From a virus: a DNA stretch of 45,111 nucleotides. The notes beneath the pieces are model-generated. The model searched no databases and was not told where the DNA came from. It worked only from the letters and a program-made list of their open reading frames with translations. The first letter of the stretch is position 1. The number at the start of each line of letters is the position of its first letter. The stretch is taken from positions 1 through 45,111 of the IMG/VR virus record IMGVR_UViG_3300049783_000416; one strand, 5' to 3'. The position numbers and the translations under genes were made by a program. Shown one piece after another: positions 900 through 42,701 of the stretch.

Positions 900-1340
900 A
901 TGAACAATCGTATTACATGTAGCGGTGCGCTATTTTACACCTTAGATACAAATAGATTTTTATTCCTTCACAGAGCGCAAGGTAAGCGTAATAATCTGTG
1001 GGGACTTGTTGGTGGTACTAACGAAGGTGCCGAAACTCCGTGGGAAGGTCTTACTCGAGAAATTGAAGAAGAAATTGGATTTGTTCCAGAAATTAAAAAG
1101 ACACTTCCGTTAGAAAGTTTTATATCTCCTGATAGTAAATTTTATTTCCATACTTATTTGTGTGTAGTACAAGAAGAATTTATTCCTAACCTCAATAATG
1201 AACATAACGGCTATGCTTGGTGTAGTTTTAGTAAATGGCCTAAGCCATTACATCACGGATTGCGCAACACACTTCAAAGTAAAGTTAACTTAACTAAGTT
1301 AGAAACTGTTTTTCAAACAATCAATTTACTTGACAAATAA
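900..1340 (+). CDS. NUDIX hydrolase
   Basis: This 146-aa protein carries a perfect Nudix box (G-x5-E-x7-REUxEExGU) at residues 39-61, containing REIEEEIGF. NUDIX enzymes hydrolyse nucleoside diphosphates linked to another group, using Mg2+ bound by the box glutamates. The short domain with an early beta strand (RITCSGALFY) resembles small GDP-mannose mannosyl hydrolase-type or mutT-type proteins, but substrate cannot be read from sequence. It follows gp15 by 8 bases with no convincing ribosome-binding site in front of ATG 900, so translation may be coupled to gp15. Its last codons (LDK-stop) contain the -35 box of the next promoter. Proximity to the ADP-heptose genes makes a nucleotide-sugar substrate attractive, but that is inference. 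Confidence 0.9.
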   Translation: MNNRITCSGALFYTLDTNRFLFLHRAQGKRNNLWGLVGGTNEGAETPWEGLTREIEEEIGFVPEIKKTLPLESFISPDSKFYFHTYLCVVQEEFIPNLNNEHNGYAWCSFSKWPKPLHHGLRNTLQSKVNLTKLETVFQTINLLDK

Positions 1341-1358
1341 CCTAAAAGATAGTATAAT
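1330..1358 (+). promoter_or_regulatory. perfect-consensus sigma70 promoter for hldE-hldD-cupin
   Basis: TTGACA at 1330-1335 and TATAAT at 1353-1358 are separated by exactly 17 bases. The -35 box lies in the last codons of the NUDIX gene. With usual spacing the first transcribed base is about 1365, the A of the hldE ATG, which predicts a leaderless mRNA. No Shine-Dalgarno sequence is visible before that ATG, in agreement. Confidence 0.8.
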
Positions 1359-1364
1359 AACATT

Positions 1365-2504
1365 ATGAAAGTATTAGTTCTCGGCGATGTAATAATCGAC
1401 AAATATATCTATGGCACATCAGAACGTTTAAGTCCTGAGGCGCCTGTGCCTGTGGTTAAGTACCAGCGTGAAGTTGAAACACTCGGCGGCGCTGGGCTTG
1501 TTTACGAAAACTTAAAAAGCCTAGGTGTCGACGTAACACTATTTGAAACTGAACAGCCTAGTAGCATTAAAACTAGAGTAATTTGTGACGGACATTATGT
1601 TACACGCATTGACGATGATAAACATGCAGACAGTACAGCAGTACTAGAAACTATAGAGTTGCATGACTTTTCAGAATACAAGTATGTTATATTAAGTGAT
1701 TATAATAAAGGTGTGTTAGACGAGTCGCTTGAAATTATCGAACACATTAACAAATTTAATTGTAAAATAATTGTAGATCCTAAAGAACATGCAAATCAGT
1801 ATAAGGACGCATGGCTAGTAAAGCCCAACTACAAAGAGTTTGACGAGTTTGGATTTACGTTTTGGCAAAGTAATATTATTACAACTAAAGCCGGGGACAA
1901 TGTTGTTGCTACAATAGATAATGTAGATTACAATATTCCAGTTGAATCTGTAGAAGTATCAGATGTTACAGGAGCAGGAGATTGTTTCTTGGCCGCATTT
2001 GTATACGGATTAACAAAGCAATACAATCATAAGAAGTGTTTAGAACTTGCCGTTAAAGGTTCTAGGGAAGCAGTTAAGCACGTAGGCACACACACGCTTA
2101 CTATAAGCGATATAGAAGAACGCATAGTGTTTACTAACGGAGTCTTTGACATACTACACACAGGACATTTTGAGCTACTAGCTGAAGCAAAATCGCTTGG
2201 CGATAAACTAGTTGTAGGTATTAATAGTGACGCAAGTGTAAAGCGTCTTAAGGGTGAAGACCGGCCTATTAATGATGCTGTAAAGCGTATTAGACAATTA
2301 GAAATATTGCCTTGGGTTGATAGAGTTGTATTGTTTAGTGACGATACACCATACGAATTAATTAAAAAATTAAAGCCGCACGTTATTGTAAAGGGCGGTG
2401 ATTACACAGTAGAACAAGTTGTAGGACACGATTTGGCTGAGGTGCATCTTGTGCCTACAGTTGAAGGATATTCAACAACACAGATTATAGAGGCAAGCAA
2501 ATGA
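1365..2504 (+). CDS. hldE: compact bifunctional HldE-like heptose kinase/adenylyltransferase
   Basis: The product (379 aa) has two domains. Residues 1-245 are a PfkB/ribokinase-type sugar kinase with SPEAPVPVVK, LSDYNKG, VDPK, VKPN and the catalytic VTGAGDC motif (Asp206). Residues about 253-379 are a cytidylyltransferase-like domain with the HTGH nucleotide-binding motif (265-268), KRLKGEDRP, KGGDY (343-347) and STTQII near the end. In E. coli HldE these halves make heptose 1,7-bisphosphate and ADP-D-glycero-beta-D-manno-heptose. Compared with the 477-aa E. coli enzyme, about 30 residues of the kinase lid and most of the interdomain linker are missing, and GGAANV reads GGAGLV. The isomerase GmhA and phosphatase GmhB are not in the window and would have to come from the host or elsewhere. 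The start is leaderless and overlaps hldD by 4 bases at the end. Confidence 0.88.
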   Translation: MKVLVLGDVIIDKYIYGTSERLSPEAPVPVVKYQREVETLGGAGLVYENLKSLGVDVTLFETEQPSSIKTRVICDGHYVTRIDDDKHADSTAVLETIELHDFSEYKYVILSDYNKGVLDESLEIIEHINKFNCKIIVDPKEHANQYKDAWLVKPNYKEFDEFGFTFWQSNIITTKAGDNVVATIDNVDYNIPVESVEVSDVTGAGDCFLAAFVYGLTKQYNHKKCLELAVKGSREAVKHVGTHTLTISDIEERIVFTNGVFDILHTGHFELLAEAKSLGDKLVVGINSDASVKRLKGEDRPINDAVKRIRQLEILPWVDRVVLFSDDTPYELIKKLKPHVIVKGGDYTVEQVVGHDLAEVHLVPTVEGYSTTQIIEASK

Positions 2505-3322
2505 AAATATTAGTCACAGGAAACAACGGCTTTATTGGTAAAAATATTTCACATTACTTACAAAGTAAAGGTCACGAAGTAGAAGGATGGGAATGGCAAC
2601 CTGGTGTACTTCCTAGTACAGAAGACTTTGACTGGTGTATACACACTGGTGCAATTAGTAGTACAACATACACTGATGTAGATCAAATACTAGAGCAAAA
2701 CTTTGAGTTTACTGTTAGGCTTGCACAGATATGCGAAAACTTTGGTACTAATTTACAATACGCATCAAGTGCAAGTGTATACGGTCCTACTACGCATTTT
2801 ACAGAAGATGGCAAGTTACTTCCAGTAAGTCCTTATGCATGGTCAAAGTATTTGTTTGACAGATTCTTAAATCAGTATCTTGAAGAGTTTCAAATTAAAA
2901 TACAAGGCTTCCGTTACTTTAACGTATACGGGCCTGGGGAAGAAAATAAAGGCGATCAAGCAAGTCCTTATACTAAGTTTACTAAGCAAGCAAAAGAAGA
3001 TGGTGTTATAACACTGTTTGAAGATAGCGAAAATTTTAAAAGAGACTTTGTTTGTGTCGAAGACATTTGTCGCGCACACGAACTTATGTTTGATTCGGAA
3101 TCAACTGGAATATTCAATATTGGTACTGGCACAGCTACTAGTTTTGAAACAGTAGCAAACGCAATTGCTACAAAGCATAACGCTGCTATAAATTATATTC
3201 CAATACCTGAAAATATAAAGGCACAATACCAAAAGTATACTTGTGCAAACTTAACTAAACTTAACAATGCAATAGATATGCAATGGACATCAATAGAGGA
3301 TTATATCAATGGAACCAACTAG
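2501..3322 (+). CDS. hldD: HldD-like ADP-L-glycero-D-manno-heptose 6-epimerase
   Basis: This is a short-chain (extended SDR) nucleotide-sugar epimerase of 273 aa. It shows the Rossmann GxxGxxG at residues 7-13, the YxxxK catalytic pair Y112/K116, and stretches close to E. coli HldD/RfaD: HTGAISSTT, YASSASVYG, GFRYFNVYGPGE, SENFKRDFVCV and GIFNIGTGTATSF. HldD inverts C6 of ADP-heptose using bound NADP. At 273 aa it is about 35 residues shorter than the E. coli enzyme. Its ATG overlaps the hldE stop codon in an ATGA arrangement and its end overlaps the cupin gene by 14 bases, so the three genes are translationally linked. The match is specific enough to prefer HldD over other sugar epimerases, though the substrate is unproven. 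Confidence 0.88.
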   Translation: MKILVTGNNGFIGKNISHYLQSKGHEVEGWEWQPGVLPSTEDFDWCIHTGAISSTTYTDVDQILEQNFEFTVRLAQICENFGTNLQYASSASVYGPTTHFTEDGKLLPVSPYAWSKYLFDRFLNQYLEEFQIKIQGFRYFNVYGPGEENKGDQASPYTKFTKQAKEDGVITLFEDSENFKRDFVCVEDICRAHELMFDSESTGIFNIGTGTATSFETVANAIATKHNAAINYIPIPENIKAQYQKYTCANLTKLNNAIDMQWTSIEDYINGTN

Positions 3323-3707
3323 ATTACAAGGCGTTGTACAAAAAGGGTGGGGCTACGAATTAATTTGGGCTACTAATGACAAGTACTGCGGTAAAATTAT
3401 GTTCTTTGAACAAGAAAACGCAATGTTTTCAATGCATTTTCATAAAGAAAAAGATGAAACATGGTTTGTAAATACTGGACGATTTAAAGTACAATGGATT
3501 GATACTACTAATGCTGCGTTATATGAAAAAGAATTAAAAGAAGGCGATGTTTGGCATAACCCACCTTTGCAACCGCATAGACTAGTTTGCTTACAAGCAG
3601 GCTCAAGTATCACTGAAGTTAGTACAGCAGACAGTGTTGAGGATAATTATCGCGTTGCGCCTGGAGACAGTCAAAGGTTATCTTCTGAACAGCCCCCAAC
3701 TGTCTAA
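3309..3707 (+). CDS. cupin-fold sugar-isomerase-like protein
   Basis: This 132-aa single-domain cupin has the metal motif HFHKEKDE (His43, His45, Glu50) followed by NTG, and a second motif NPPLQPHR with His90. The opening KGWGYELIW and the ending STADSVEDNYRVAPGDSQ resemble the cupin domain of type II mannose-6-phosphate isomerases and related small sugar-nucleotide cupins. It starts inside the end of hldD, so it belongs to the ADP-heptose operon, where a sugar-phosphate or nucleotide-sugar isomerisation step is plausible. A binding-only role cannot be excluded. It converges with the 2223-aa tail gene, leaving only 7 bases between the two stop codons and no clear terminator. Confidence 0.75.
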   Translation: MEPTRLQGVVQKGWGYELIWATNDKYCGKIMFFEQENAMFSMHFHKEKDETWFVNTGRFKVQWIDTTNAALYEKELKEGDVWHNPPLQPHRLVCLQAGSSITEVSTADSVEDNYRVAPGDSQRLSSEQPPTV

Positions 3708-6700: not shown

Positions 6701-9700
6701 AATGTTGCGCCTGCACCTAAGATTGGCATGTTACTCGGAGATACTGCTGTGTATGGGCCGCCTGCTGTTGCTGCTGTGCCTGAGCTTGAAATGCCAGTAA
6801 TTACACCAGTTGTTACAGCATCAATAGCAGTAACATTAATAGTAAGGTTGTTTGCAGGACTTGTACCCGACAGCACCACGCCGCCTACTGTTAATACTTG
6901 TCCAGCTCCATAGAAAGTACCGCCTGTATTTATAGATGTTGTGTAACCACTGCCCGAGATTGCAACATCAAAAGTTGCACCTGTACCAACTTTGTTTGCT
7001 GATACTACGGCGTAGTTGCTACCAGTTGTTGTACCAGAACCAGTTGCTGTGATAGCAGTAATATCTCCTGTTCCTCCAACGTTATCAATTGTAATCGTTA
7101 AATCATTTGCTGGAGTTGCGCCACCTAGTGAAGTACCTAGTATTACAAATGTCTCAGTAGGCTGATAATCACCGCCTGCTTGGGTAATTGATACAGCATA
7201 GTTACCGTTTGAAGCAGCAATGCCAAACACTGCTGATGTACCAGATGATCCAGCATATGTTCCAAGTCCTATTATTGATGTTGAAAAGCTAAGATTTACA
7301 AAAGGCGGAGTACCAGTAGCTGTTGATCCAGTTATTGCTCCACTTCCATCAACAGTATCAACAACAATATATAAATCATTAGCTGGTGATGTGCCTCCTA
7401 TATCAGAACCTAGTATTTCAACCAAGTCAGCTACTACAAAACTTGCTGACGCATCAGTTGTGTCTAAACCAACACCAGTAATCGATATTGATGCAATAGC
7501 ATCAGATGCGCCAACAGTGTCAATTGTTATTGTTGCATTATTTCCTGGTGTTACACCACCTAAGTTTTCACCTAGTATTGTAAATGTTTCATTCACTACA
7601 AAGTCTTGACCTGCTGTTGTAATAGTTGCAGTATATGCAGTTCCTGTTTTGGTTACAGCAAATTTTGCTCCGAAGCCTACGCTACCGGCATATGACATTG
7701 TTGGTGATGCAAATACAACTGTTCCAGATGATTGGGTAACTGAAGTATATGATCCTGCTGTGTACGCTAAGTCCCAACGTGCTCCAGTACCTGTGGGTGT
7801 ATATGATCCTGGTATGCCAGTTAATGATAATGCGCCGTCCCAATGTACACCTGCGTGTGTTACAGTAAGTATTCCGCCATTAGCTGCAACAGAGGCTACA
7901 GTTATAACTATATCGTTAGTGACTGACAGGCCACCTAAAGTTATGCCGTCTAGTTTAAGTCTATCACCTATTTTATAAAGCGTGCCTGCTGCATTTACTG
8001 CAACAGTGTATGTGCGTCCTGCGTTCCCGTCGAGCGCAATATTAAATGTTGCATTGATACCGTTGTTAGTGTCGTTTGTCCCGCCGATGCCCGGATATGT
8101 CTTTTTGTTTGGTACTATAGCTGCTGTAAATGCATCTGTAACATCAATATAAGTTGCTGTTACGTTATTAATATAAGTTGCAGTGCCATCGCCTTTGTCT
8201 AGGGCTAAGTTAGGGACTATACCAGTAGTGTCTTCAAGATACACTCGAGTTCCTGCAATAGCAGTGTTATCAGTTACTATTGGAGTTAAGTAGGTGCCGC
8301 CGCCTGCACTAGTATCAATAATACTAGTTACCTGCGAGCCTGTTGGTATAGCTGCGTTAGTAAGTGGAGAACCAATTTCTGGGGCGCCCCCATCAAATGG
8401 TATAATTGTTTCGCCAGTTGCTATTCCTAATTGAGTAGTTATTGTTCCTGAGCTACCATTACTTACAACTGTAAATGTTGGATTACCAATTGTTGCTCCT
8501 GTGTAAAAACCAGCTTGTCTTAACTGTGTATATGTTGTAGATAATGTTGTTGGATTAACTGTACCAACTTTAGATTTTGCATAAAAAGTAAAGGTACTAG
8601 TTGTTGGGATTTCTACAATAACAAAGCTACCCTCGGCTCTTGCTGCACCATTAACACTATCTTCAAGTGCTTTAATAGTAATAGGAGTGCCTGCTGTAAA
8701 GCCATGTGGCCCTACTGTTGTAACAGTAATTAATGATTGACCAATGCCGTCGGTGCCTGCTGATGCGTCAGTTACTACGCTAACTACTTGAGTGTCAGTG
8801 CCTGGTACTTCGTATACACTTGGATATCCTCTAAGTGTTGCTATAGCTGCCCACTTAGTAGGCTGCAAGCCGTACTCAAAGTCAGCATCAAGCATTGATA
8901 ATGGATTTGCTGCACGTGGACGTTCAATGGCATCTGTACCAAAGTCGTATGGTCTAGTAGTTACAACACTCTTTCCGTTTTCAATTTGTTCTACAAAAAG
9001 TTGTATGTCATCTGTACTGCTATGTGCGCTAGTATTATAATTTAATTTAATAGTAGTTATGCCGTCAGTAATTTGTAAAAATTTAGCAAAGTCTGGATCT
9101 TCAGTAACACTGTTAGTACTAATGGTTACTACGCCACCAGTAGTAATACTAGTAAAGTTATATATTACTTCACTTTTAGTACTATTAGTAATCAGCAGTA
9201 TTTCGTCAATACTGTACTTGCCTTGGAACTTAACCGAACCAACACCTTCATTTACAAGCTTAGGCAGTGATAGTAAACCGTTTTGTATAGTGTCTACTGT
9301 GTTGAACGCTAGTGTGTTAATTTTTGCTGCTGGTCCAGATGTTACTGAATTTGTTACAGCACTTGAAAATGTATGTAATGATGTATCTGAACTGATGCCT
9401 ACACTAGCAGTTACAGTAGTACTAGTTACCGATGTAATAGTAATTGGTGCGTAATAATACGGGTCTTTGCCTTTGGTGTTTGGGACACCTGATGCTCTTG
9501 GATACGGATGTAGCGTTGCGTTGCCATCAAGAGCACAAGTAAATGTTATGCCTGCAGGAGCAATATGTATTTCGTCTCCTACTTGAAGCGTATGACTGCC
9601 AATTGTTATTGTCATTTTTCCAGTAGTAGGAATGTATGTTGCGTCAGTTGGTGTAAATTGTGCTGTTGCTTCAGTTGCAGTACCTGATGTTGTTTGTACT

Positions 9701-10386
9701 ACTTCAGTTTGCAGAGAAGTATAAGCTACTTGTGCTAGAATATTATTTTGGATTAATTGTCCAATCCAATAGTGTGCAACTAATTCAGGACCTCGAGATC
9801 CGTCGACTTGTGCAACAGTTTGATCCCAATAATATTTAATATTATTATAAGTTTTTTCATTTCCGCCATAACGTAAGTCATTTAAGTACGAGTCAAGTAT
9901 ATAGCCAACATCTCTTTCGCATTTTAGTACACTAGTATTTGTATAATTATAAAACGTATCCTGTGTAGCATTTGTTACAGAACTTATCCAAGTGTGGGTA
10001 GCAGTGTCAGTTGATACTCCAGCATCAACTGTAATATTTACATTTGCTGTAACTCCTGTAACTATTAATGCCTTACCGAGGAACGGAACAGCTCCAGCAG
10101 AGCTGTTAGTAAATGTTATTCCGCCTGCTGCAATAATAATTGCATCACCTATATTTAAATTGTGTGTGCCAATTGTTAATAATAATACTCCAGTAGTAGG
10201 AGTGTATACTGCTGCTGTTGGGGTATACTGCTGTGCAGTAGCAACCCTGTTAGCTATAAATGCACTCATTTCTTTCTGTATGAAAGATTTATTAGAGCTT
10301 ATTAATCCGTAAGCATTTGGAAAACGACTATCGTTTGCCCCGATACCAGGTTTAAATACATAATTTTTTATCTGCGTCTTTGCCAT
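3715..10386 (-). CDS. giant repetitive tail/fibre structural protein (2223 aa)
   Basis: This is the longest gene in the window. Residues 1-180 include an alpha-helical-looking module in two parts, FIQKEMSAFI and CERDVGYILDSYLNDLRYGG, split by a beta insertion of roughly 95 residues. A similar beta motif (PTTGxxxxTIGxHxLxxGDxIxIAxxGITF) recurs near residues 55-100 and 250-300. About residues 795-1290 form at least six degenerate repeats with the core GG.SPANDL.I. The following region (VHRPFDGGVMLGTGGPQHGA, YIRYQSGKGIMYTTGALFAP) and the end (NVYKVSGSAIDANIIIRWGE) are of a type I recall from large virion proteins of marine T4-like phages. No enzymatic motif was recognised. It follows the 293-aa gene by 3 bases, with only weak SD-like sequence GGATTATAAAAC before the ATG. 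It is probably part of the distal tail or baseplate-attached fibres. Confidence 0.85.
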   Translation of the reverse strand: MAKTQIKNYVFKPGIGANDSRFPNAYGLISSNKSFIQKEMSAFIANRVATAQQYTPTAAVYTPTTGVLLLTIGTHNLNIGDAIIIAAGGITFTNSSAGAVPFLGKALIVTGVTANVNITVDAGVSTDTATHTWISSVTNATQDTFYNYTNTSVLKCERDVGYILDSYLNDLRYGGNEKTYNNIKYYWDQTVAQVDGSRGPELVAHYWIGQLIQNNILAQVAYTSLQTEVVQTTSGTATEATAQFTPTDATYIPTTGKMTITIGSHTLQVGDEIHIAPAGITFTCALDGNATLHPYPRASGVPNTKGKDPYYYAPITITSVTSTTVTASVGISSDTSLHTFSSAVTNSVTSGPAAKINTLAFNTVDTIQNGLLSLPKLVNEGVGSVKFQGKYSIDEILLITNSTKSEVIYNFTSITTGGVVTISTNSVTEDPDFAKFLQITDGITTIKLNYNTSAHSSTDDIQLFVEQIENGKSVVTTRPYDFGTDAIERPRAANPLSMLDADFEYGLQPTKWAAIATLRGYPSVYEVPGTDTQVVSVVTDASAGTDGIGQSLITVTTVGPHGFTAGTPITIKALEDSVNGAARAEGSFVIVEIPTTSTFTFYAKSKVGTVNPTTLSTTYTQLRQAGFYTGATIGNPTFTVVSNGSSGTITTQLGIATGETIIPFDGGAPEIGSPLTNAAIPTGSQVTSIIDTSAGGGTYLTPIVTDNTAIAGTRVYLEDTTGIVPNLALDKGDGTATYINNVTATYIDVTDAFTAAIVPNKKTYPGIGGTNDTNNGINATFNIALDGNAGRTYTVAVNAAGTLYKIGDRLKLDGITLGGLSVTNDIVITVASVAANGGILTVTHAGVHWDGALSLTGIPGSYTPTGTGARWDLAYTAGSYTSVTQSSGTVVFASPTMSYAGSVGFGAKFAVTKTGTAYTATITTAGQDFVVNETFTILGENLGGVTPGNNATITIDTVGASDAIASISITGVGLDTTDASASFVVADLVEILGSDIGGTSPANDLYIVVDTVDGSGAITGSTATGTPPFVNLSFSTSIIGLGTYAGSSGTSAVFGIAASNGNYAVSITQAGGDYQPTETFVILGTSLGGATPANDLTITIDNVGGTGDITAITATGSGTTTGSNYAVVSANKVGTGATFDVAISGSGYTTSINTGGTFYGAGQVLTVGGVVLSGTSPANNLTINVTAIDAVTTGVITGISSSGTAATAGGPYTAVSPSNMPILGAGATFEINKNFTSYDSVTPSALGTGYALGDRIILPGTAFDGASPANDIVLTVSNINAGTGAIGGTTPNAAIANYGTNLDLISTITMTEATTAPISINQSITFSAIAIIDATFDNAHGLVPGASFITTITSDAAGNNHNLTAGSYIATNIPTVNSLRFQARAVGAIDTSSNVIQGAVYPRPDSFFVHRPFDGGVMLGTGGPQHGAQAIRQSKKYIRYQSGKGIMYTTGALFAPSYDIRSITADGVEVNSLITIVTDDNDHGVQPGGIVRLIGVETPGFNSGEQTAVPPKFDYTVEEVVDERTFKVRAVRRLGATTAVLGFGSQMSVVAWHGATVRSGIFDDQNGIFWEFDGTNVSVNQRTGTRQLAGTIALTVDNNLIVGTNTRFQDQLKAGDRVVIKGMTHVVSHVNSQTGMTVTPDWRGVVNITGAKINLVADKKVKQKDFNLDRLDGTGPSGYDIDIAKMQMIGIQYSWYGAGFIDFMLRGANGNFVFAHRMRNSNINTEAFMRSGNLPVRYEVTNEGPSGKLAAGMTNSQTTLKLFDGSFFPYAGTIYIDNEIITFTGRTDNTLTGLTRGATFTNFQAGANRSYTAAVAATHADRTGVILISQTITPLISHWGSAFITDGGFDSDRGYIFSYAETAVEVTTTKQTAFMIRLAPSVSNALIGDLGTRELLNRAQLLLTGLEVTSETGAGGIVIEGVLNPQNYPTNPNDVGWSGLSGVAQGGQPSFAQIASGGGVTWSTGAAATTANITSVPNITGVINSGQNNWGNNNRYISVSANDFAAVFGERDIGLVLGKPITGSGIPSNTTITDGYIDNSGNYGYFRLSNRANGLSSNTVDAYTIPFNVEGTNRNYGYFTVASFDASAGKIGTTVTGGNNGITVPANTQINSVTLLSYAGTDYYEVTFNNAFTGTLQATSGTLALEFVQPPFAQPGETIFSFIAVPGERSTLDLNDLKELTNTPLGGRGTYPNGPDVLAINVYKVSGSAIDANIIIRWGEAQA
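6510..8000 (-). repeat. six or more approx. 80-aa beta repeats within the 2223-aa protein
   Basis: Successive copies share a pattern of LG..LGG.SPANDLTI.ID.V...G.I..I...G. Recognisable cores are GGLSVTNDIVITV, GGVTPGNNATITI, GGTSPANDLYIVV, GGATPANDLTITI, SGTSPANNLTINV and DGASPANDIVLTV. Spacing is about 180-390 bases and is mostly near 260, so units differ in length. This looks like a stack of small beta domains in a fibre shaft and is a likely site of copy-number change by recombination. Confidence 0.7.
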
Positions 10387-12085: not shown

Positions 12086-12093
12086 TATTTATC
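12086..12093 (-). promoter_or_regulatory. late promoter GATAAATA
   Basis: GATAAATA on the minus strand, about 21 bases before ATG 12064. It overlaps the stop codon of the oxygenase gene ending at 12092, so it restarts late transcription of the structural genes just after the cassette. Confidence 0.65.
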
Positions 12094-12592
12094 AATTAAG
12101 AAGCTTACCTTTCAATATCCAATTTGCACTAACACGCCTAGGTACTGTGCTAGTTATAGGACAATGGTCAATTCGACAATCAAAAAATAAAGCTGAATTT
12201 TCTTTATGTTTATATGTTGCATCTTTAAATTGTGTTCCACCGTCAGCATCATTAACATAATATAATAAACTATAATATCCTTCATCATACATATCTTGGT
12301 GCCATCCGGTGTTTTGCCCAGCTGTATAAAAGTTAACCATGCATCTATGAAGATACTCTAATTGAAATATATCTTTGTTTGCATCTAACCAATAGTCAAG
12401 TGCATATATTAGCGTATCAGTTCCATGCCAATTGTTTGTATTATTTGTTATGTTAAACGGTTGTGTGAAAAATGCTCCAGCACCATCTTTCCCACCAGAG
12501 CTAGGATAATTCCAGTTGACCATAGGATCTAGAAGTTGATTATTAACTTTTTTATGTAGCCACTCCGGCAAAAAATTATCAAACTGTTTCAT
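12092..12592 (-). CDS. Fe(II)/2-oxoglutarate-dependent dioxygenase (paralog A)
   Basis: This 166-aa protein has the double-stranded beta-helix signature of prolyl-4-hydroxylase-like enzymes: HQD (His98, Asp100), a distal His143 in IDHCPI, and Arg153 in RRVSANW as the expected 2-oxoglutarate salt bridge. Such enzymes hydroxylate proteins, sugars or small molecules with O2. It is paralogous to the gene at 16028-16549: LPEWLH, CMVNFYTAGQNTGWHQD, YYSLLYYVN and GGTQFKD all have close counterparts. The ATG overlaps the stop codon region of the carbamoyltransferase gene, so it is the last gene of the cassette and co-translated with it. The substrate is unknown. Confidence 0.88.
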   Translation of the reverse strand: MKQFDNFLPEWLHKKVNNQLLDPMVNWNYPSSGGKDGAGAFFTQPFNITNNTNNWHGTDTLIYALDYWLDANKDIFQLEYLHRCMVNFYTAGQNTGWHQDMYDEGYYSLLYYVNDADGGTQFKDATYKHKENSALFFDCRIDHCPITSTVPRRVSANWILKGKLLN

Positions 12593-14412
12593 TAGTTATT
12601 TACAGTCAATAATTTATTATACTCAGGCAAATACAAATACTCTATCTTACTATATGCTAACGTGTGTAGTGCATCAGTTAGTGTTTCAACTAAAGGCTCG
12701 CCGCCTAAGTTAAAGCTAGTATTAAAGATAATTGGACATCCTGTCTTTTCTTTAAACGCTTTAATAATATCATAGTAATGCGGATTCTGTTCATGTGTAA
12801 CTGTTTGTATGCGGCAAGTTCCGTCAACATGAATAATAGCAGGGATCTTTTCAGCAATACCTGGTTGACAATTAACAGCATACATCATATGCGGACTGTC
12901 TTCCATACCACGTAAGTCAAACCATTCATGCGCATCTTCAGCTAGTATACTTCCTGCAAACGGTCTAAAGTATTCTCTACGTTTAATTTCGTTAACAAAG
13001 TCTTTTCCATCTTCAAATGTAGGATCAAACATTAAGCTCCTATTACCTAATGCACGTGGGCCTGCTTCAGAACGACCTTGGAAACATGCAACAATATGTT
13101 TGTTAGTCATTAAGTCAATTACACGTTGGTTATCTGCGTCTTCAATAGTTGCGTTATACTTGTTAGCTGCTTCAGTAATTTCATTGCTGGAATAACTACG
13201 TGGAGGACCCATATAAATGTCACGTCCGTTATTCTTTCTAATATCTTCGGTTAGCATGTAATGGCCAAGTAGTGCGGCGCCAATAGATGTGCCGCCATCA
13301 TTTGAAATAGGTTCAACAAATAGTTCAATACCTTTGTCACGCAAGCGATCTAATAAAAAGTAATTAGCTACACAGTTAAGGGCATAGCCGCCTGAAAATA
13401 CTACTTGTGTTTTGCCCGACAGTTTAACCGCTTTAAGTATAAGATTATACACTTGTTCCTGTGTTTCTTGTTGTGCAGCATATGCAAGATCTCTTCTATT
13501 TTGAAGTAAAGAAAGGTCGCCTTGTTGATCATGGTTAGTATCTAACTCGGGGTATGCTTTGGCGTTGACTAATGCTCCCCTAGGGTAGAACGAAACAAAC
13601 ATATTTCTATCTGATAGCATAACACCGTCTCCGTGCTCTACAAAAAACGGCGGTATATTTTTATTAGGCTCACCATAAGGAAATAATCCCATAGTTTTGC
13701 CTGCTTCAATTTCTTGAAAGCCTGCGTATTTTGTTGCTGCTTCGTATGTTTTAGTAATGCCTGCGGAACCAGAATGAACAGCAATATGAGTTCCTTCTTC
13801 TCCTAAGTGTTCGGAGGATGCATTATGATCAATATTTGTTAATATAGTGTCTTTACATGCACTATGCTTATATAGTGTTTTAAATGTCGAAGGGTAACTA
13901 CAATCTATAATTGATTCTACTTCCCACATACTCATTTCCCACATTGAATCAGGACGGTGTTTTGGTTCATAATTGTACTCTATATCTTGTACTGAACCGC
14001 AGCCGTCAATGACTAAAGAAACTGCACTGTCAAATCCTGAACGATAAAACGAACATGCTGAATGTAGTTTGTGATGCTGATGACTAAGATCAATTACTTG
14101 AGGATGATTTTGTGGTTCTATACGTTGATCAATTAATCCTAGCTTCCGGGCCATTCCGGTGTATATGTTATCACCTGTAAATTCAATTTTTCCAGCTGCT
14201 TCTATAGACGTAGTATGTGCCATAAACATGTAATCTACTTTGTCAGTATATTCTAATACCTTTGTCATTGCAGCAAGCGGCGAGCCGTCGTACTTATTTC
14301 TACTGAGGCGTTCTTCTTCAATTGAAAATACTATTTCGCCGTTTTTTACAAGACATACTCCTGCATTGTGGCCTCGAGAAATGCCTAAAATCCAAAAATC
14401 TGGTCTACTCAT
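12592..14412 (-). CDS. NodU/CmcH-family O-carbamoyltransferase
   Basis: This full-length 606-aa enzyme has both family domains. The N-terminal Kae1-like domain shows ILGISRGHNAGVCLV, EEERLSR, the metal-site histidines in HQHHKLHSACSFY (113, 114, 117), VIDGCGS, FSGGYALNCVAN (339-350) and PISNDGGTSIGAA. The C-terminal domain (from about 430) has QGRSEAGPRALGNRS (445-459), IKRREYFRPFA, IIHVDGTCRIQTV and TGCPIIFNTSFN. The family makes carbamoyl-adenylate from carbamoyl phosphate and ATP and transfers the carbamoyl group to a hydroxyl, as in nodulation factors, cephamycins and tobramycin. It follows the GT9 gene by 18 bases with an AAGGAC ribosome-binding site. The acceptor is likely a sugar or a hydroxyl made by the neighbouring oxygenases (inference). 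Confidence 0.93.
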   Translation of the reverse strand: MSRPDFWILGISRGHNAGVCLVKNGEIVFSIEEERLSRNKYDGSPLAAMTKVLEYTDKVDYMFMAHTTSIEAAGKIEFTGDNIYTGMARKLGLIDQRIEPQNHPQVIDLSHQHHKLHSACSFYRSGFDSAVSLVIDGCGSVQDIEYNYEPKHRPDSMWEMSMWEVESIIDCSYPSTFKTLYKHSACKDTILTNIDHNASSEHLGEEGTHIAVHSGSAGITKTYEAATKYAGFQEIEAGKTMGLFPYGEPNKNIPPFFVEHGDGVMLSDRNMFVSFYPRGALVNAKAYPELDTNHDQQGDLSLLQNRRDLAYAAQQETQEQVYNLILKAVKLSGKTQVVFSGGYALNCVANYFLLDRLRDKGIELFVEPISNDGGTSIGAALLGHYMLTEDIRKNNGRDIYMGPPRSYSSNEITEAANKYNATIEDADNQRVIDLMTNKHIVACFQGRSEAGPRALGNRSLMFDPTFEDGKDFVNEIKRREYFRPFAGSILAEDAHEWFDLRGMEDSPHMMYAVNCQPGIAEKIPAIIHVDGTCRIQTVTHEQNPHYYDIIKAFKEKTGCPIIFNTSFNLGGEPLVETLTDALHTLAYSKIEYLYLPEYNKLLTVNN

Positions 14413-14430
14413 GTACGTTGTCCTTAATTA

Positions 14431-15387
14431 TCAGTTGTTTATTATTGCGCTTGCAATTTTCTTTATTTGGTTTTCGGTTAGTGCCATTGCTTGTTCATTT
14501 TGCCTGTTAGCATGTTCGTCTGAAGTAATACGTATAGGATTATATACCCGTTTGCTTTTATTAAAATCAAAAACTTTAAAATTCTTGTTTTCTGGATACG
14601 AAACATTTTCAGGATATGTTGAACCTAATACTACATACGAAGGTTTATCTATTGCATGTGTAACGTGTTGCCCTACAGAATCACAACCAATAAATGCATC
14701 TGCTGCGTCTAGTAAGCCAAACCATTTTCGTAGATCTATATTTTCTACAAAGAATACTTCTTCTTTAACTCCTAACTTTTGAAAGTCTACGTTAAATTCG
14801 TTCATTAGTAATACGCAATATCTATGTTCAATTAAGCGTATTAGTCGTGCAGCGTCAGCTATTGTAAACGACCTTCCTGAGTTGTCAATAGGTCCACTAG
14901 GTGCCTCTATAGCACCTAGTGTGATGCCTTTTCCAAATGGTTGAAAAATTATCAAAGGTTTGTTATTACGCTTACTTTTCATATCTGTAATAATACTAGT
15001 TGCAGTAACCTTTTCTTCATTACTTAAATGTATTGCTAAATTTGATAATTCTTTATCTAATGATCCATTAATAATTATATCAAACGCTTGAGAAATAGAA
15101 CAGTGTTGATTATAATATTCCCATACACCGTACGGCTCAGGTACTATTAAATTTCGTTGTTGTATTTTATCTTTAAATAAATGCGCATGACCAACTGGAT
15201 ATGATCTAGCATGTAATTCTGGGTGCCCGGAAAATGCTTCGTATGCAAATTCTGAAAATATTATAAAATCATCTTGCGGATTATTTCTATGATATTTTTC
15301 TAATGCAGGAATAGCACAAATAACTCTGCCTATACCTCCATTTATATAAAATGCTGTATTTCTTTGATTAACTATTTCTTGTTTCAT
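14431..15387 (-). CDS. GT9 (heptosyltransferase-like) glycosyltransferase
   Basis: The product (318 aa) has a GT-B layout. An early GGIGRVICAIPALEKY (17-32) matches the glycosyltransferase family 9 start, and IGCDSVGQHVTHAIDKPS with VLGSTYPEN (233-261) matches the C-terminal nucleotide-sugar-binding region (Asp236, His241). GT9 enzymes such as WaaC and WaaF transfer heptose from ADP-heptose; others use different donors. The same window encodes HldE- and HldD-like enzymes, so an ADP-heptose donor is a good hypothesis. The start overlaps the stop of the upstream oxygenase gene by 4 bases (ATGA). The acceptor could be a virion protein, a host glycan or a small molecule; nothing in the sequence decides. 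Confidence 0.82.
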   Translation of the reverse strand: MKQEIVNQRNTAFYINGGIGRVICAIPALEKYHRNNPQDDFIIFSEFAYEAFSGHPELHARSYPVGHAHLFKDKIQQRNLIVPEPYGVWEYYNQHCSISQAFDIIINGSLDKELSNLAIHLSNEEKVTATSIITDMKSKRNNKPLIIFQPFGKGITLGAIEAPSGPIDNSGRSFTIADAARLIRLIEHRYCVLLMNEFNVDFQKLGVKEEVFFVENIDLRKWFGLLDAADAFIGCDSVGQHVTHAIDKPSYVVLGSTYPENVSYPENKNFKVFDFNKSKRVYNPIRITSDEHANRQNEQAMALTENQIKKIASAIINN

Positions 15388-16031
15388 AAATGTAACTCGT
15401 TTAAATTTTCATTTTTTCCAAATAGGCCTTTAACAAATACATTAAAGGCTAAGCTTATTCTTGTTTTATCTGATTTATTAGGTGCTACTTCGTGCAGTAG
15501 TGTAGAAGGAAAATATATAATACCATTAGTACCAACAGGAATAGTCCAATTACGTGAGTTAGCTAAGTTATACTCTGAAACATCTATTGCTAGTGTCTCA
15601 TTAGCAGTAATGTTTGTATTACTATTTGATGAAAACGTTATACTATCGGTTTCGTCAGTTTCTATATAATATACTCCGCTAATTATCGAATTAGAATGAT
15701 TGTGCTTATGGTGTGCAGTTCCAGGTGGATTAATATTCAACCACGACTGTGTTAGATAAAAACTATGTTTTTTATCAATACACATTACTTCATTTATATA
15801 CACATCTAAGCCATCAAGTATTCTTCTTTTTATTTCACTATAATGATCTAATTCTAAAATATTATGATTAGCTGAAGAAAAGTTTTGGGCTGTATTTAAC
15901 GTCATTTCCGTTTGCTCGTTAGTTGTGTCATGTACGTTAGTATCACTATAGTGCGTATCATATAAAAATACAGGAGTGCCAAACAATAACATAGTATTCG
16001 ATTGTGCCTTTGTTGGGTTGTATTCTATCAT
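15384..16031 (-). CDS. TIGR02466-type putative Fe(II)/2OG oxygenase
   Basis: This 215-aa protein resembles the TIGR02466 family of putative 2OG-Fe(II) oxygenases. It begins LLFGTPVFLYD, then has SWLNINPPGTAHHKHNHSNS with SGVYYIET, where His108, His110 and His112 offer the first metal ligands. A distal His180 lies in YFPSTLLHEVAP and Arg191 in TRISLAFN for 2-oxoglutarate. Members occur often in marine T4-like phages without assigned substrates. Both ends overlap neighbouring genes by 4 bases (ATGA), showing tight coupling with the dioxygenase upstream and the GT9 gene downstream. An ATG at residue 14 is possible but ATGA coupling favours the chosen start. Confidence 0.83.
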   Translation of the reverse strand: MIEYNPTKAQSNTMLLFGTPVFLYDTHYSDTNVHDTTNEQTEMTLNTAQNFSSANHNILELDHYSEIKRRILDGLDVYINEVMCIDKKHSFYLTQSWLNINPPGTAHHKHNHSNSIISGVYYIETDETDSITFSSNSNTNITANETLAIDVSEYNLANSRNWTIPVGTNGIIYFPSTLLHEVAPNKSDKTRISLAFNVFVKGLFGKNENLNELHL

Positions 16032-16549
16032 TGTTTCTTTTTCCCTCGTAATATCCAGTTTACACTAAGTCTTCTTGGAGATGTATTACGTATTGCTGCA
16101 TGCCATTCTGTACACTTAAATAACAAAAATCTGTTTTCTTTGTGTTTAACAGAAGGATGGTCTTTAAACTCAGTGCCGCCGTCGCTGGCATTTACATAAT
16201 ACAATAATGAATACCAATCGTTATCTTTATCTTCGGGTATATCTTGGTGCCATCCTGTATTTTGACTAGCTGTATAAAAGTTTATTAAACATCGATCAAC
16301 ATAGCTAAGTTCAAATAAGTTTCTATTATCATAAAGCCAACAATCTAACGCATACACTAGCGATCCGCACTGTGAAAAGTCTTGCTTTACGTCATGTTGA
16401 TATGGTATATGAGCCAACGATGCTTTATTAAGATCAGTATCAAGCCCGCCATATCCTGGAAAATGCCAATCTACAGTTGGTAATTCAAGCTCTTGACGAC
16501 AGCGTTCATGCAGCCATGCTGGTAATGTATCATCACTTATTAATATCAT
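16028..16549 (-). CDS. Fe(II)/2-oxoglutarate-dependent dioxygenase (paralog B)
   Basis: From ATG 16549 the protein is 173 aa, with HQD (His101, Asp103), distal His150 in EWHAAI and Arg160 in PRRLSVNW. It is a clear paralog of the 12092-12592 protein; LPAWLH, FYTASQNTGWHQD, WYSLLYYVN and GGTEFKDH align throughout. The frame is open to a GTG at 16582, but ATG 16549 aligns with the start of the paralog and gives only a 17-base overlap with the upstream gene, so it was preferred (ATG 16558 is also possible). Differences are concentrated around residues 33-62, where substrate-recognition loops commonly lie in this fold, so the two copies may act on different substrates. Confidence 0.87.
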   Translation of the reverse strand: MILISDDTLPAWLHERCRQELELPTVDWHFPGYGGLDTDLNKASLAHIPYQHDVKQDFSQCGSLVYALDCWLYDNRNLFELSYVDRCLINFYTASQNTGWHQDIPEDKDNDWYSLLYYVNASDGGTEFKDHPSVKHKENRFLLFKCTEWHAAIRNTSPRRLSVNWILRGKKKQ

Positions 16550-17228
16550 TAGTACCATCAATTCTAATATTACCCGATACACTTATTCTATAGTCATCAG
16601 AAGTGTAAAACGGATACACACAGTGATGTAATGTTGAAGGAAACATTAGTATAGTTCCTTCCCAAGACTTATCTACGGGCAATGGTGTAGGACGCAAGCT
16701 TCCTAAGGCATCAGTATGAAAAAAGGTAAATTTTGATGTAGACGCTCCATCAGTGTCGACACCAGGGTCAGAACCTTGCCCTGATACTGGAGGGAAATAA
16801 GTTTCTTCTTCTTTTAAATCATATGGAATATTAATCCATATAACAAAGCTTAATACACCTGAATGATGATGTACTGGATTAAACTCATACTTTTTTTGTT
16901 TATTAACCCACATACTACTAAGATATAGTCTATATTTTTTGTTCTTTGCAGCTTCTTCAAAGGTACCAATATGTCCTGGGGTTCCTTCATCCCATTGTTG
17001 TGCCATAGCTTCTATAAACGGAGCCATATTAGGCACAACATGATTTAATGAATATTCTTCTTTCATGTGTCCTAATAGATTGTTATTGTATTTCTCACCA
17101 TTTTCTTCTGTTATCTCACTAATAGCGTTTGATAATCCTTCAAAAAGGTCAAATGGTAACTTTGATTGCATTACTCCTGGAGTAACGAGAAAGTTCATTG
17201 ACATTTTAGCTACTTCGTTTTCTGACAT
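16533..17228 (-). CDS. putative Fe(II)/2OG oxygenase-like protein, phage type
   Basis: This 231-aa protein shows a jelly-roll oxygenase pattern: NPVHHHSGVLSFVIWINIPY (His120-122), then GTILMFPSTLHHCVYPF (His201, His202) and YRISVSGNIRI with Arg214 as a possible cosubstrate ligand. The order and spacing resemble the phage proteins often annotated as 2OG-Fe(II) oxygenase superfamily, but the canonical HxD is not obvious; HHH could supply two ligands. Its ATG directly follows the halogenase stop with AAGGAAC as ribosome-binding site, making it the second gene of the cassette. Catalytic activity is less certain than for the two HxD paralogs. Confidence 0.68.
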   Translation of the reverse strand: MSENEVAKMSMNFLVTPGVMQSKLPFDLFEGLSNAISEITEENGEKYNNNLLGHMKEEYSLNHVVPNMAPFIEAMAQQWDEGTPGHIGTFEEAAKNKKYRLYLSSMWVNKQKKYEFNPVHHHSGVLSFVIWINIPYDLKEEETYFPPVSGQGSDPGVDTDGASTSKFTFFHTDALGSLRPTPLPVDKSWEGTILMFPSTLHHCVYPFYTSDDYRISVSGNIRIDGTNDINK

Positions 17229-18806
17229 TTAATGTTCCTTGTTATTGTATATATGCTTCGATAACCAGTCGTAAGCACTAAGCTGGGTTTTTACAGCAGC
17301 TTTCCATTGTTTTATTTTGTTGCGTCTATCATACAAAAACTTGTCACATAGATCACGCATACTTATTTGTAAGCCTAATTCTTGCTTTGAAATATCTATC
17401 TCATTATATACATTGTAGTTCATGCCATTAGCTATACAAACAATACCTGCTTTTCCAGAATGTTTAAGTGTGGCTGTTTTCTTTATGTATAAGTCATTAA
17501 AGCCGCTTGAACTGTTTTCTAAGTTTGGATCATAAACTCTTGCTCTATTTTTATTCCAGTAATCAGAATCGCTTCTTATAGTTAATGTATAATGCAATGC
17601 AACAAATTGTGCAAAATTATGATAAAACTTTCTTGTGTGTGCATTATACACATCGCGATCAAATTGGTTAATTACAGGGCGATCTGCATGTCGACAAAAT
17701 TCTAAAATAAACTCATGCACACTTAATAAGCCATTACTTTCTAAAGGTTCAATAAATGCAGCAGCTAATCCAATACCTAAAACATTCTTTACCCATGTAC
17801 GCTCGTATATACCTGTCTTAAAGTTAATATTTCTAAAATTAAGATCGTCAGTAACCCTATTGGGGTTATGTAATGTCATTTTATCTGAATTAAGATGATC
17901 TTTAAATTCTTGTAGAGCGTCTTCGTCTGATATAAACTCATCTGAATATACATACCCTGTACCTATCCTAGACCAAAGTGGAATATTCCAAACCCAACCA
18001 TTACTTAATGCAGTACAATTTGTATACACTTCTAATTCTTTTTCTTTATCAGTATACGGTACTTGCACAGCCCATGCTTTGTTATTTGGTAAAATATCAC
18101 TATAAGATACAAACGGTTCTTCTAATGCTTTGCCTAATAGTAAACTTTCAAATCCAGTACAGTCTACATAAAGGTCTGCTTGTAACTCTGTACCGTCTTC
18201 GAGTATTATTTTAGATATGCCGTTGTCGTCAGTAGGTGCATCTTTAACTGTTCCTACTACGTGCTTAACACCTCGAGGTATGCAGTAACGATCTTTAAGA
18301 TACTGTCCAAACAATAAAGAATCAAAATGGAAGGCTGTATTATAATCAAACCTGAAATCATCAAGGCCATTGTCTTCATTAGTTGATATTTTGTTTTCAT
18401 TTACTAATGCCATTACAGGCCAAAAGTTTTCAGCAAAGTCACTAGAGTGTGTTTCGGGATAATACGCTTTTTTTAATGACCAATGATTATAATTAACGTC
18501 ATCAGTTTCTATAGGGTCTCCAAAGGGGTAATGAAATCCACCATAGTCTTTATCATAAAAGTCAGTAAATTTAATACTAAGCTTATACGTACCGTTTGTA
18601 TGTTGTAAGAAGTCCTTGTCGTCTATTCCAAGGTAGTTGGTCCAATCTCGGATAAATCCTAGTGTACTTTCACCTACACCTACTTTAGGAATATCAGCAC
18701 TTTCTACTAGTGTAATATCTTTGTTAGGAAATTTCCTAACGAGGGTTGAAGCAGCCATCCATCCAGCTGAGCCTCCGCCAACTACTATTATACTATTAAA
18801 TGCCAT
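17229..18806 (-). CDS. flavin-dependent halogenase (tryptophan-halogenase family)
   Basis: This complete 525-aa protein has the family landmarks in order: FAD-binding GGGSAGW (10-16), GVGEST (43-48), the catalytic lysine Lys75 in TYKLSIKF (Lys79 in PrnA/RebH), VDCTGFESLLLGKALEEPF, WVWNIP (271-276; family WxWxIP) and FIEPLESNG (352-359) with Glu356 equivalent to PrnA Glu346. Family members use reduced FAD, O2 and halide to form hypohalous acid that reaches the substrate through a lysine-lined tunnel. Asn358 replaces the usual Thr beside the halide site, a possible change in halide preference. No flavin reductase is in the window. A cyanophage relative, VirX1, has been reported as a broad-substrate iodinating enzyme, so the substrate need not be tryptophan. 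It is the first gene of the cassette, with its own sigma70 promoter and a GGAGG site 7 bases before the ATG. Confidence 0.95.
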   Translation of the reverse strand: MAFNSIIVVGGGSAGWMAASTLVRKFPNKDITLVESADIPKVGVGESTLGFIRDWTNYLGIDDKDFLQHTNGTYKLSIKFTDFYDKDYGGFHYPFGDPIETDDVNYNHWSLKKAYYPETHSSDFAENFWPVMALVNENKISTNEDNGLDDFRFDYNTAFHFDSLLFGQYLKDRYCIPRGVKHVVGTVKDAPTDDNGISKIILEDGTELQADLYVDCTGFESLLLGKALEEPFVSYSDILPNNKAWAVQVPYTDKEKELEVYTNCTALSNGWVWNIPLWSRIGTGYVYSDEFISDEDALQEFKDHLNSDKMTLHNPNRVTDDLNFRNINFKTGIYERTWVKNVLGIGLAAAFIEPLESNGLLSVHEFILEFCRHADRPVINQFDRDVYNAHTRKFYHNFAQFVALHYTLTIRSDSDYWNKNRARVYDPNLENSSSGFNDLYIKKTATLKHSGKAGIVCIANGMNYNVYNEIDISKQELGLQISMRDLCDKFLYDRRNKIKQWKAAVKTQLSAYDWLSKHIYNNKEH

Positions 18807-18809
18807 AAA

Positions 18810-18856
18810 AATGCCTCCGTTACTGTTATTTAAGTATAACAGTGATTGGAGGCATT
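18810..18856 (-). terminator. SD-sequestering hairpin / probable intrinsic terminator
   Basis: A long inverted repeat: outer arms AATGCCTCC and GGAGGCATT (9 bp), a small internal loop, inner arms ACTGTTAT and ATAACAGT (8 bp), and a 6-base loop. On the minus strand it is followed by a T run, so it can end transcripts of the upstream adhesin/chaperone operon. Its right arm contains the GGAGG of the halogenase gene, so in any read-through RNA the ribosome site would be paired. This resembles known T4 cases (genes e and soc), where early read-through RNA is untranslated because a hairpin hides the site. Confidence 0.75.
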
Positions 18857-18861
18857 GTCAA
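18833..18861 (-). promoter_or_regulatory. sigma70 promoter of the halogenase cassette
   Basis: On the minus strand TTGACA (18861-18856) and TATACT (18838-18833) are 17 bases apart. The predicted start is near 18826, giving a leader of about 20 bases with GGAGG and ATG 18806. The start point lies inside the right half of the hairpin listed separately, so these transcripts lack its left arm. Confidence 0.75.
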
Positions 18862-18868
18862 GTGGTTT

Positions 18869-41516: not shown

Positions 41517-42701
41517 TTAGCTAAAGCTAACGTTGCCGTCAGTAATTTCAACACGACCTAAGTAGTCAGCTGCATTACCAAGCGATGATGCAGTGTTGTT
41601 CAACTCAACATATCCATAACGTGTCATGAATGATACTGTTGGTTCGAACGTACCTGGATCAAGTACAACGCCTGAGCTCATTAGTGGGATATATGGGCAA
41701 TAGAATGCTGCTGCATCCGACTCACTTGCGCCTTTGTATCCGATAAGCACTGCTGAACTATCAGCTGCGTATGTGTTTACATATACTTTCATTGCATTGT
41801 TCAAAGTACCAACCATCTTAGTGTTAGTTGGAGCTTCAAAAGTGCCTTCAGTTGTACGTGCAAACGCACTAGTTGTAGCAGACTGTAGAATTGTTAGTGC
41901 CAAAGGACTAACTACAGCCCAGTTACCTGCGCCTCTACGTGTACGCTGTGCAATCAAGTTACTTACGCGGTTGATTTGCACTGCTAATGCAGCATGCTCG
42001 TCACCTACGAAAGTAGCAGTACCAGATACCGCAGCTTGATTGTAAGTTTGTGAACCAGTTCCAGCCAATGTCTGTAGTGATCCTAATACTTCTTGGTCAA
42101 TCTCAGCAGTAATCTCTTGTGCAAGAGCTGCCATGATTTCAGCTTCAACATCAATACCATGCATTGACTGAGCATCTTGTGCAGCTTCAAAAGTCCAACG
42201 AGCACTCAACTTACGAGTCTTCGCTTCAACTGTCTGCTTCAAGATTTGGATAGACATTCTATTGCCTGCCTCAGCTTCTAAAGTTGCTGTATTTGCTGCT
42301 TTACCAGCAGTTCCGTCACCGGAATATGCTTCAGCAATTTTGAATGGGCTTAGAGCCTCTTCGCCTGCTGTGGTATCGTTTACTGATCCAGTAGCATTTT
42401 GTGTATCGCTATAACGAACACGTAATGTGTGGATTTGACCAACTGGGCCAGTCATTGGCTGTACGCCAACTAGCTCGTTAGCAATAACAGTTGGCATTAC
42501 ACGACGGATAACTGGTAGGATAACACGGTTAAGTGTAGCTACGTTACCTGCGGATGTTGCGCCTGCTGTTGCACTCTCTGACAAATATCTGCGAGTGTTT
42601 TCTAGTGTAGCAGCCATAACTGACTTCTTGTTACCTTGTAGGCCTTCAAGAAGTGCGTTTTTGGTGTCACCCCAGCGTGATTCTAGTAATTCTGACATCA
42701 T
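41517..42701 (-). CDS. 23: major capsid protein gp23
   Basis: This is the T4-type major capsid protein. The segment LPVIRRVMPTVIANELVGVQ followed by PMTGPVGQIHTLRVRYS is close to T4 gp23, and QEITAEIDQEVLGSLQ and VVSPLALTILQSA match the family core. At 394 aa it is much shorter than T4 gp23 (521 aa), so it has a smaller N-terminal propeptide and may lack the T4 insertion domain. LxE sites near the start (LLES, YLSES) are candidates for gp21 cleavage. It follows gp22 with TAAGGAG overlapping the gp22 stop. A strong terminator lies downstream. Confidence 0.95.
   Translation of the reverse strand: MMSELLESRWGDTKNALLEGLQGNKKSVMAATLENTRRYLSESATAGATSAGNVATLNRVILPVIRRVMPTVIANELVGVQPMTGPVGQIHTLRVRYSDTQNATGSVNDTTAGEEALSPFKIAEAYSGDGTAGKAANTATLEAEAGNRMSIQILKQTVEAKTRKLSARWTFEAAQDAQSMHGIDVEAEIMAALAQEITAEIDQEVLGSLQTLAGTGSQTYNQAAVSGTATFVGDEHAALAVQINRVSNLIAQRTRRGAGNWAVVSPLALTILQSATTSAFARTTEGTFEAPTNTKMVGTLNNAMKVYVNTYAADSSAVLIGYKGASESDAAAFYCPYIPLMSSGVVLDPGTFEPTVSFMTRYGYVELNNTASSLGNAADYLGRVEITDGNVSFS

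Follow-up and report, generated by a model that had tools for sequence, protein, structure and literature searches.

A predicted heptose, carbamoyl and halogen tailoring cassette in the tail-fibre locus of a marine phage, with a promoter set in a leader hairpin

Why would a virus carry, among its tail-fibre genes, a run of enzymes of the kinds that halogenate, oxidize, glycosylate and carbamoylate, and on what target and when would they act? We address this question for a 45,111-base virus contig (IMG/VR record IMGVR_UViG_3300049783_000416, positions 1 to 45,111; hereafter the window), in which open reading frame (ORF) listing and profile searches identified seven minus-strand ORFs at 12092-18806, encoding a halogenase, four 2-oxoglutarate (2OG)-Fe(II) oxygenases (a to d), a GT9-fold protein and a carbamoyltransferase (the cassette; Table 1). 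A reading of the sequence alone (the original prediction) had placed seven genes here, within a phage tail-fibre locus, and our searches reproduced their coordinates, spacing and setting: the cassette is embedded in a T4-like tail-fibre block, surrounded by genes for a tail-assembly chaperone, glycine-rich and other tail-fibre proteins, baseplate proteins, a head protease and the major capsid protein. The seven genes are real, but the pathway unit is larger than the seven originally proposed and includes heptose-supply genes at 1365-3707. We tentatively propose that the cassette and this heptose block form one phage glycan-tailoring pathway, with a tail-fibre or other virion protein as its likely acceptor and control uncoupled by a leader hairpin.

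The same families were found co-conserved in order across diverged phages, whereas the original prediction was to be given up if they never were. Of the viral contigs retrieved through the halogenase, L009, L010, L012 and L013 keep the order halogenase, oxygenase a, oxygenase c, GT9-fold protein, carbamoyltransferase at 53-99% identity, and L015 keeps it as far as the GT9 gene, where the contig ends; the order halogenase, oxygenase c, GT9-fold protein, carbamoyltransferase recurred in L017-L020, L024, L025 and L095, with oxygenases b and d optional. This conserved order rules out chance adjacency of unrelated genes. Loci found with the GT9-fold protein encoded the carbamoyltransferase in 74 of 77 cases, after the GT9 gene in nearly all, and the 68 loci of at least 15 kb carried the carbamoyltransferase (66), a fibre or structural homologue (65), HldE (21) and a halogenase (15), compared with fibre homologues in 12 of 36 halogenase loci without GT9 (the loci are non-independent samples, and the halogenase query draws its own nearest relatives). 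When 84,980 species genomes were scanned for the GT9 subfamily, seven loci were returned, which look like mis-binned phage contigs because all seven had the carbamoyltransferase and six had fibre, structural or heptose-block genes. The subfamily appears to be phage-restricted, and a bacterial origin of the cassette was set aside, these seven loci resembling phage fragments in metagenome-assembled genomes.

The cassette also co-occurs with genes for ADP-heptose supply (HldE, HldD and a cupin), which lie 8 kb away on the opposite strand. Both HldE and HldD of the Hld pathway were found, with matches that are strong but all under the NCBIfam equivalog/curated cut-offs, and the cupin is a constant member of phage heptose blocks (S-SSM7, S-CAM3 and P-SSM2). 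HldE recurs in the six cassette-bearing relatives whose contigs extend far enough (G001-G005 and G010), in one of which (G004) it is followed by a GmhB-type HAD phosphatase. With genes for ADP-heptose this close by, a glycan is the likely kind of target.

For the GT9-fold protein, sequence comparison gave little: PF01075 reached 19.4 bits, under its 22-bit curated cut-off, a sequence-profile search of the PDB returned nothing, and profile comparison to WaaC and WaaF was weak. An AlphaFold2 (AF2) model built from 19 homologues (predicted local distance difference test score 82.5) matched GT9 structures at Z 22.4 (3tov), 20.1 (WaaF), 18.9 (WaaC) and 18.2 (TibC), with the next unrelated family at 11.4, assigning the GT-B/GT9 fold from the fold search alone. 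TibC, a protein heptosyltransferase, shows that the GT9 group is able to heptosylate polypeptides, and TibC/BAHT enzymes combine a GT9-like fold with ADP-heptose use and a polypeptide acceptor (PMC4358343). ADP-heptose would be the donor of the phage protein too, judging solely by the neighbouring HldE and HldD.

The other enzyme assignments of the original prediction were upheld. The halogenase has the complete Trp-type motif set of GxGxxG (as GGGSAG), lysine, glutamate and WxWxIP (as WVWNIP), and is predicted to be a flavin-dependent (FADH2) halogenating enzyme. Lys75 and Glu356, originally described as intact, are present in TYK and PLES contexts and align with the corresponding residues of VirX1, the flavin halogenase of cyanophage Syn10 and nearest PDB structure (6qgm, E 1e-99), where the published number of the lysine, K79, is offset from that of the chain; the protein as a whole is 39% identical over 91% to Syn10 (tblastn), its C-terminal 100 residues unmatched. 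We know of no natural substrate for VirX1. In some loci (L024, L025, L017 and L018), two to four halogenase homologues surround one GT9-carbamoyltransferase pair, the second ones being 25-30% identical. The carbamoyltransferase aligned over its full length, as had been claimed, with Kae1-like N-terminal and YrdC-like C-terminal domains both above cut-off, and its PDB relatives include 7xb6 (with conserved motifs in common), GdmN, TobZ and the novobiocin enzyme. Elsewhere, N-terminal-only paralogues (~370 aa, lacking the C-terminal domain) adjoin the full-length enzyme (S-SSM7, L002:20854-21963; Sf-FS3, L005:18667-19824).

All four oxygenases exceed the curated Pfam cut-offs (PF13640 for b and d, PF13759 for a and c) and keep the HxD/HxH...H iron-ligand pattern of the 2OG-Fe(II) group, whose double-stranded beta-helix fold was modelled for oxygenase c alone. 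In the fold search with that model, uncharacterised relatives ranked first (Z 19.7 to 2rg4), followed by SnoN and PHD2 prolyl hydroxylases with equal scores of Z ~15, and we therefore assign it no substrate. In L009-L013 and L015, oxygenase a is the gene immediately following the halogenase. The accessory members are b, which occurs at this position in >90% identical relatives only, and d, which is also found in L013, L020 and L024/L025. With its GTG start, b would share 50 nt with the preceding gene; its true start is more probably one of two internal ATG codons, at 16558 or 16549. The 'endonuclease V' label that phrog_274 puts on b, like the 'DNA endonuclease V' labels on relatives, was rejected as a misannotation of a 2OG oxygenase (PF13640). 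In cyanophages, denV/endonuclease V labels (phrog_274; GenBank, for example SSSM7_124 of S-SSM7) likewise sit on prolyl 4-hydroxylase (P4H)-like oxygenases of the kind of b and d, with PF13640 and HxD...H...R, so cyanophage denV counts may be inflated.

Expression of the cassette appears to be set apart from that of its neighbours. The window contains two exact TTGACA-N15-19-TATAMT sequences where 0.25 would be expected, both with N17, one directly ahead of each sugar block. G004, a 120-kb relative, has this sigma70-type promoter in front of a gene for a DnaB-like helicase and of another gene in the UvsW region as well, pointing to an early or middle class. Among the flanking virion genes, those in which an element can be recognised have (G/T/A)ATAAATA, of T4 late type, 20-26 nt before the ATG instead; such boxes are not enriched in the window overall (15 found versus 20 expected), and their placement before virion genes alone is informative. 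The heptose-block promoter ends 6 nt ahead of the ATG, predicting a leaderless mRNA. Such mRNAs are implied to recur as a class among these phages, several genes having a -10 box that ends 6 nt before the ATG, or ATAAATA that ends 4-5 nt before it (HldE here; in G004 (L202-L207), 1743-3179 and 13408-14619, plus about eight cases of ATAAATA).

The 62-nt gap ahead of the halogenase (18807-18868, minus strand) houses both the cassette promoter and an RNA hairpin, and this leader is the most stable among 30 starts. In the long RNA, the halogenase Shine-Dalgarno (SD) sequence had an unpaired probability of 0.00 in all eight homologues; in RNA begun after the -10 box, it was mostly or partly free in seven, the exception (L012) having a weak alternative pairing. 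MAFFT/RNAalifold alignment misregistered the arms and gave only two compensatory pairs, so the leader was judged by per-sequence folds and an arm-swap test. Arms of the same phage paired at -18 to -25 kcal/mol and between-clade swaps mostly at -5 to -16, which argues that pairing is maintained as the sequence changes (co-variation). The -35 TTGACA is invariant, and the hairpin loop has a late-like TTAAATA (6/8 to TATAAATA), which overlaps the near-perfect sigma70 -10 box and may also allow late firing. With the transcription start placed by promoter position, the leader shows the arrangement of a T4 gene e-type switch, in which the SD is hidden and an internal promoter gives RNA without the 5' arm. 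Such a hairpin plus internal promoter has precedent in T4 (PMC3014915), where genes e, soc and I-TevI have an SD buried in read-through RNA and freed by a promoter in or beside the hairpin (PMC3014915, PMC2988022). In T4, however, the promoter is late and early RNA is blocked, whereas the cassette leader has a conserved TTGACA/TATAMT promoter, so that late read-through would be the blocked RNA. Because the hairpin buries the SD, read-through RNA should be silent, and the cassette is expected to be translated from its own-promoter RNA rather than from fibre-gene read-through; co-timing with the virion genes is accordingly doubtful.

Table 1 Positions of the cassette, heptose-block and control features in the window
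Feature	Position	Strand	Evidence
Sigma70-type promoter of heptose block, TTGACA-N17-TATAAT	1330..1358	+	same spacing in L171-L174
HldE-like heptose-7-P kinase / heptose-1-P adenylyltransferase	1365..2504	+	NCBIfam HldE E 5e-84; PF00294, PF01467
HldD-like ADP-glyceromanno-heptose 6-epimerase	2501..3322	+	TIGR02197 E 6e-70; top PDB matches are HldD structures
Cupin ('cysteine dioxygenase')	3309..3707	+	phrog_7851; Cupin_1/2
T4-type late promoter core (GATAAATA) of next tail-fibre gene; marks cassette 3' edge	12086..12092	-	21 nt before ATG at 12064
2OG-Fe(II) oxygenase d, P4H-like, paralogue of b	12092..12592	-	PF13640 E 4e-6; HQD...H...RR
Full-length Nol/TobZ-type O-carbamoyltransferase	12592..14412	-	PF16861 E 5e-59, PF02543 E 8e-23
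GT9-fold heptosyltransferase-like protein, phage-specific subfamily phrog_8954	14431..15387	-	AF2 fold match
2OG-Fe(II) oxygenase c, PF13759/TIGR02466	15384..16031	-	PF13759 E 2e-20; TIGR02466 above cut-off
2OG-Fe(II) oxygenase b, P4H-like, PF13640	16028..16582	-	PF13640 E 6e-7; HQD...H
2OG-Fe(II) oxygenase a, PF13759 type	16533..17228	-	PF13759 E 2e-10, phrog_81 E 1e-29
Flavin-dependent halogenase, VirX1/Trp-halogenase family, cassette gene 1	17229..18806	-	PF04820 E 3e-104, phrog_2928 E 2e-144
RNA hairpin; -10 box region in loop, halogenase SD in 3' arm	18810..18856	-	-25.3 kcal/mol, z -6.5
Sigma70-type promoter of cassette, TTGACA-N17-TATACT	18833..18861	-	same place in 8 relatives

From the computed gene families, co-conservation, phage restriction, and promoter and hairpin conservation, we infer the following order of steps, acceptor and timing. 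HldE and HldD would make ADP-heptose, with GmhA-like and phosphatase functions supplied by host or phage; the GT9-fold protein would transfer or handle a heptosyl unit on the acceptor; and the carbamoyltransferase would then O-carbamoylate the sugar. The 2OG oxygenases would hydroxylate the acceptor (in prolyl-hydroxylase-like fashion) or the sugar, and the VirX1-like halogenase would act on an aromatic group, plausibly an exposed Tyr or Trp. A virion target is favoured because of fibre-gene linkage and phage restriction, the likeliest acceptor being a tail-fibre or other virion protein encoded beside the cassette. The host-sigma70-type promoter would start the mRNA inside the hairpin, leaving the ribosome site free, whereas fibre-gene read-through would fold and stay silent; enzyme dose and timing would in this way be uncoupled from the late fibre operon.

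Several observations weigh against this reading, some of them in the GT9-fold protein itself. In place of the catalytic Asp of the GD motif after strand 1, it has Arg21, invariant in 19 of 19 phage homologues: where the phage family reads GR, E. coli WaaC and WaaF both read GD (D13), and hhalign sets the phage GR on the GD of WaaC, with a weak overall score. In TibC, D110 of the GD motif is the catalytic base, as established by mutation (PMC4358343), and TibC differs from the phage family in this residue and in its ring-forming insertions. The reaction might thus be something other than heptosyl transfer, and because Arg replaces the catalytic Asp we use the name GT9-fold for the protein rather than counting it among proven heptosyltransferases; the original call of a GT9 glycosyltransferase is borne out by the modelled fold but not by PF01075 or the catalytic residue. 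In addition, no gmhA or gmhB was seen within the window, the halogenase is optional (15 of the 68 longer GT9 loci), the fibre/neck region of such phages houses unrelated auxiliary genes too, and an early-type promoter suits host-surface modification at least equally well. In the most specific version of our proposal, a dedicated pathway with a divergent, Arg-containing GT9-fold enzyme would add heptose, carbamoyl, hydroxyl and halogen groups to the phage's own tail-fibre proteins, under a switch that reverses that of T4 lysozyme by being on from host sigma70 and off in late read-through RNA; as a whole, this version seems unlikely.

The same promoter bears on remodelling of the host envelope, in which a modified heptose (carbamoylated, possibly halogenated) would be placed early on host lipopolysaccharide (LPS) or a surface glycan, blocking superinfection or altering the surface. 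The sigma70-type timing, a host-type promoter and silenced late read-through suggesting early expression, and the resemblance to WaaF and WaaC, the LPS heptosyltransferases that are the nearest characterised GT9 structures, make this a possible, if on balance rather unlikely, explanation; fibre-region glycosyltransferases of pelagimyophages have been proposed to modify the O-chain (PMC7029224), and Sullivan et al. (2010) termed such phage clusters LPS genes (PMC3037559). It fits less well with a GT9 subfamily that is phage-restricted, sits beside fibre genes in 65 of 68 loci and lacks the canonical catalytic Asp, or with P4H-like oxygenases and a VirX1-type halogenase, which better suit a polypeptide or aromatic acceptor than a sugar chain.

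We consider it improbable that these are independent auxiliary genes with unrelated substrates and only a recombination hotspot in common. In favour of it, the fibre region varies greatly (PMC7029224), the cassette can do without its halogenase and oxygenases b and d, and in phage S-H35 the halogenase sits among replication genes; yet the halogenase-oxygenase-oxygenase-GT9-carbamoyltransferase order is kept at 53-88% protein identity, the genes are tightly packed as a single promoter-hairpin unit, GT9-carbamoyltransferase pairing is near-obligate and the heptose block recurs. Very unlikely, finally, is a diffusible halogenated, glycosylated and carbamoylated metabolite made as in antibiotic late steps, an analogy drawn in the original prediction and in keeping with the GdmN, TobZ and novobiocin relatives of the carbamoyltransferase and with the many free aromatics that VirX1 takes in vitro (PMC8407142), because no scaffold-making gene was found among the annotated genes of the window or the S-SSM7 run, while siting among fibre genes is conserved and heptose supply is typical of glycan, not antibiotic, chemistry.

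The preferred reading, a phage glycan-tailoring pathway, also has to be placed among published phages. The original prediction knew of no such combined pathway, but the cassette is not without precedent, because S-SSM7 (NC_015287), an isolated cyanophage with a genome from 2010, carries a looser version: a GT9-like protein, a full carbamoyltransferase, two 2OG proteins and a Trp halogenase in one run, with HldE parts, a phosphoheptose isomerase, a cupin and an epimerase, between the tail fibres and gp13. It differs in gene order, in a halogenase only 28% identical, in heptose genes contiguous with the cassette, in an extra N-terminal-only carbamoyltransferase and in its cyanophage capsid lineage. 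P-SSM2, S-CAM3 and Sf-FS3 similarly have a GT9-like gene followed by a carbamoyltransferase, with HldE/GmhA/cupin/epimerase genes, beside fibre genes, but in a run without a halogenase. Sullivan et al. (2010) proposed that phage LPS-type genes are functionally linked (PMC3037559). The enzyme families and most of the combination are thus already known from published genomes; no description of the combined pathway was found in the literature searched, which was thin on subscription journals, and as far as that literature and the searches made here show, what is new is the coherent heptose-halogen-carbamoyl unit in its conserved order, together with the promoter-in-hairpin leader and the phage-restricted GT9 subfamily without the catalytic Asp.

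The carrier is a large marine phage infecting bacteria. Its major capsid protein (41517-42701) is nearest, at 67-69%, to those of large Vibrio, Pseudomonas and Sinorhizobium phages, whereas a 2223-aa giant structural gene (in 3715-10386), the GT9-fold gene and the carbamoyltransferase match cyanophages. A cyanophage origin of the window was rejected on the capsid lineage, the cyanophage matches of the fibre-region genes notwithstanding. Because capsid and fibre-region genes differ in their nearest phages, the contig is a mosaic, and the combination of a non-cyanophage capsid lineage with cyanophage-like fibre-region genes suggests that the decoration module moves with fibre genes among T4-like lineages.

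The promoter-in-hairpin leader shows how enzyme genes can persist inside a late structural operon. If the proposed pathway is correct, viral flavin halogenases would gain a natural role, and so would the Nol-like carbamoyltransferases of marine phages, which have long been classed as auxiliary metabolic genes; both would belong to a single decoration pathway built on heptose and linked to tail fibres. Should virion proteins be what is modified, consequences would follow for the host range and adsorption of abundant ocean phages and for their resistance to host defence.

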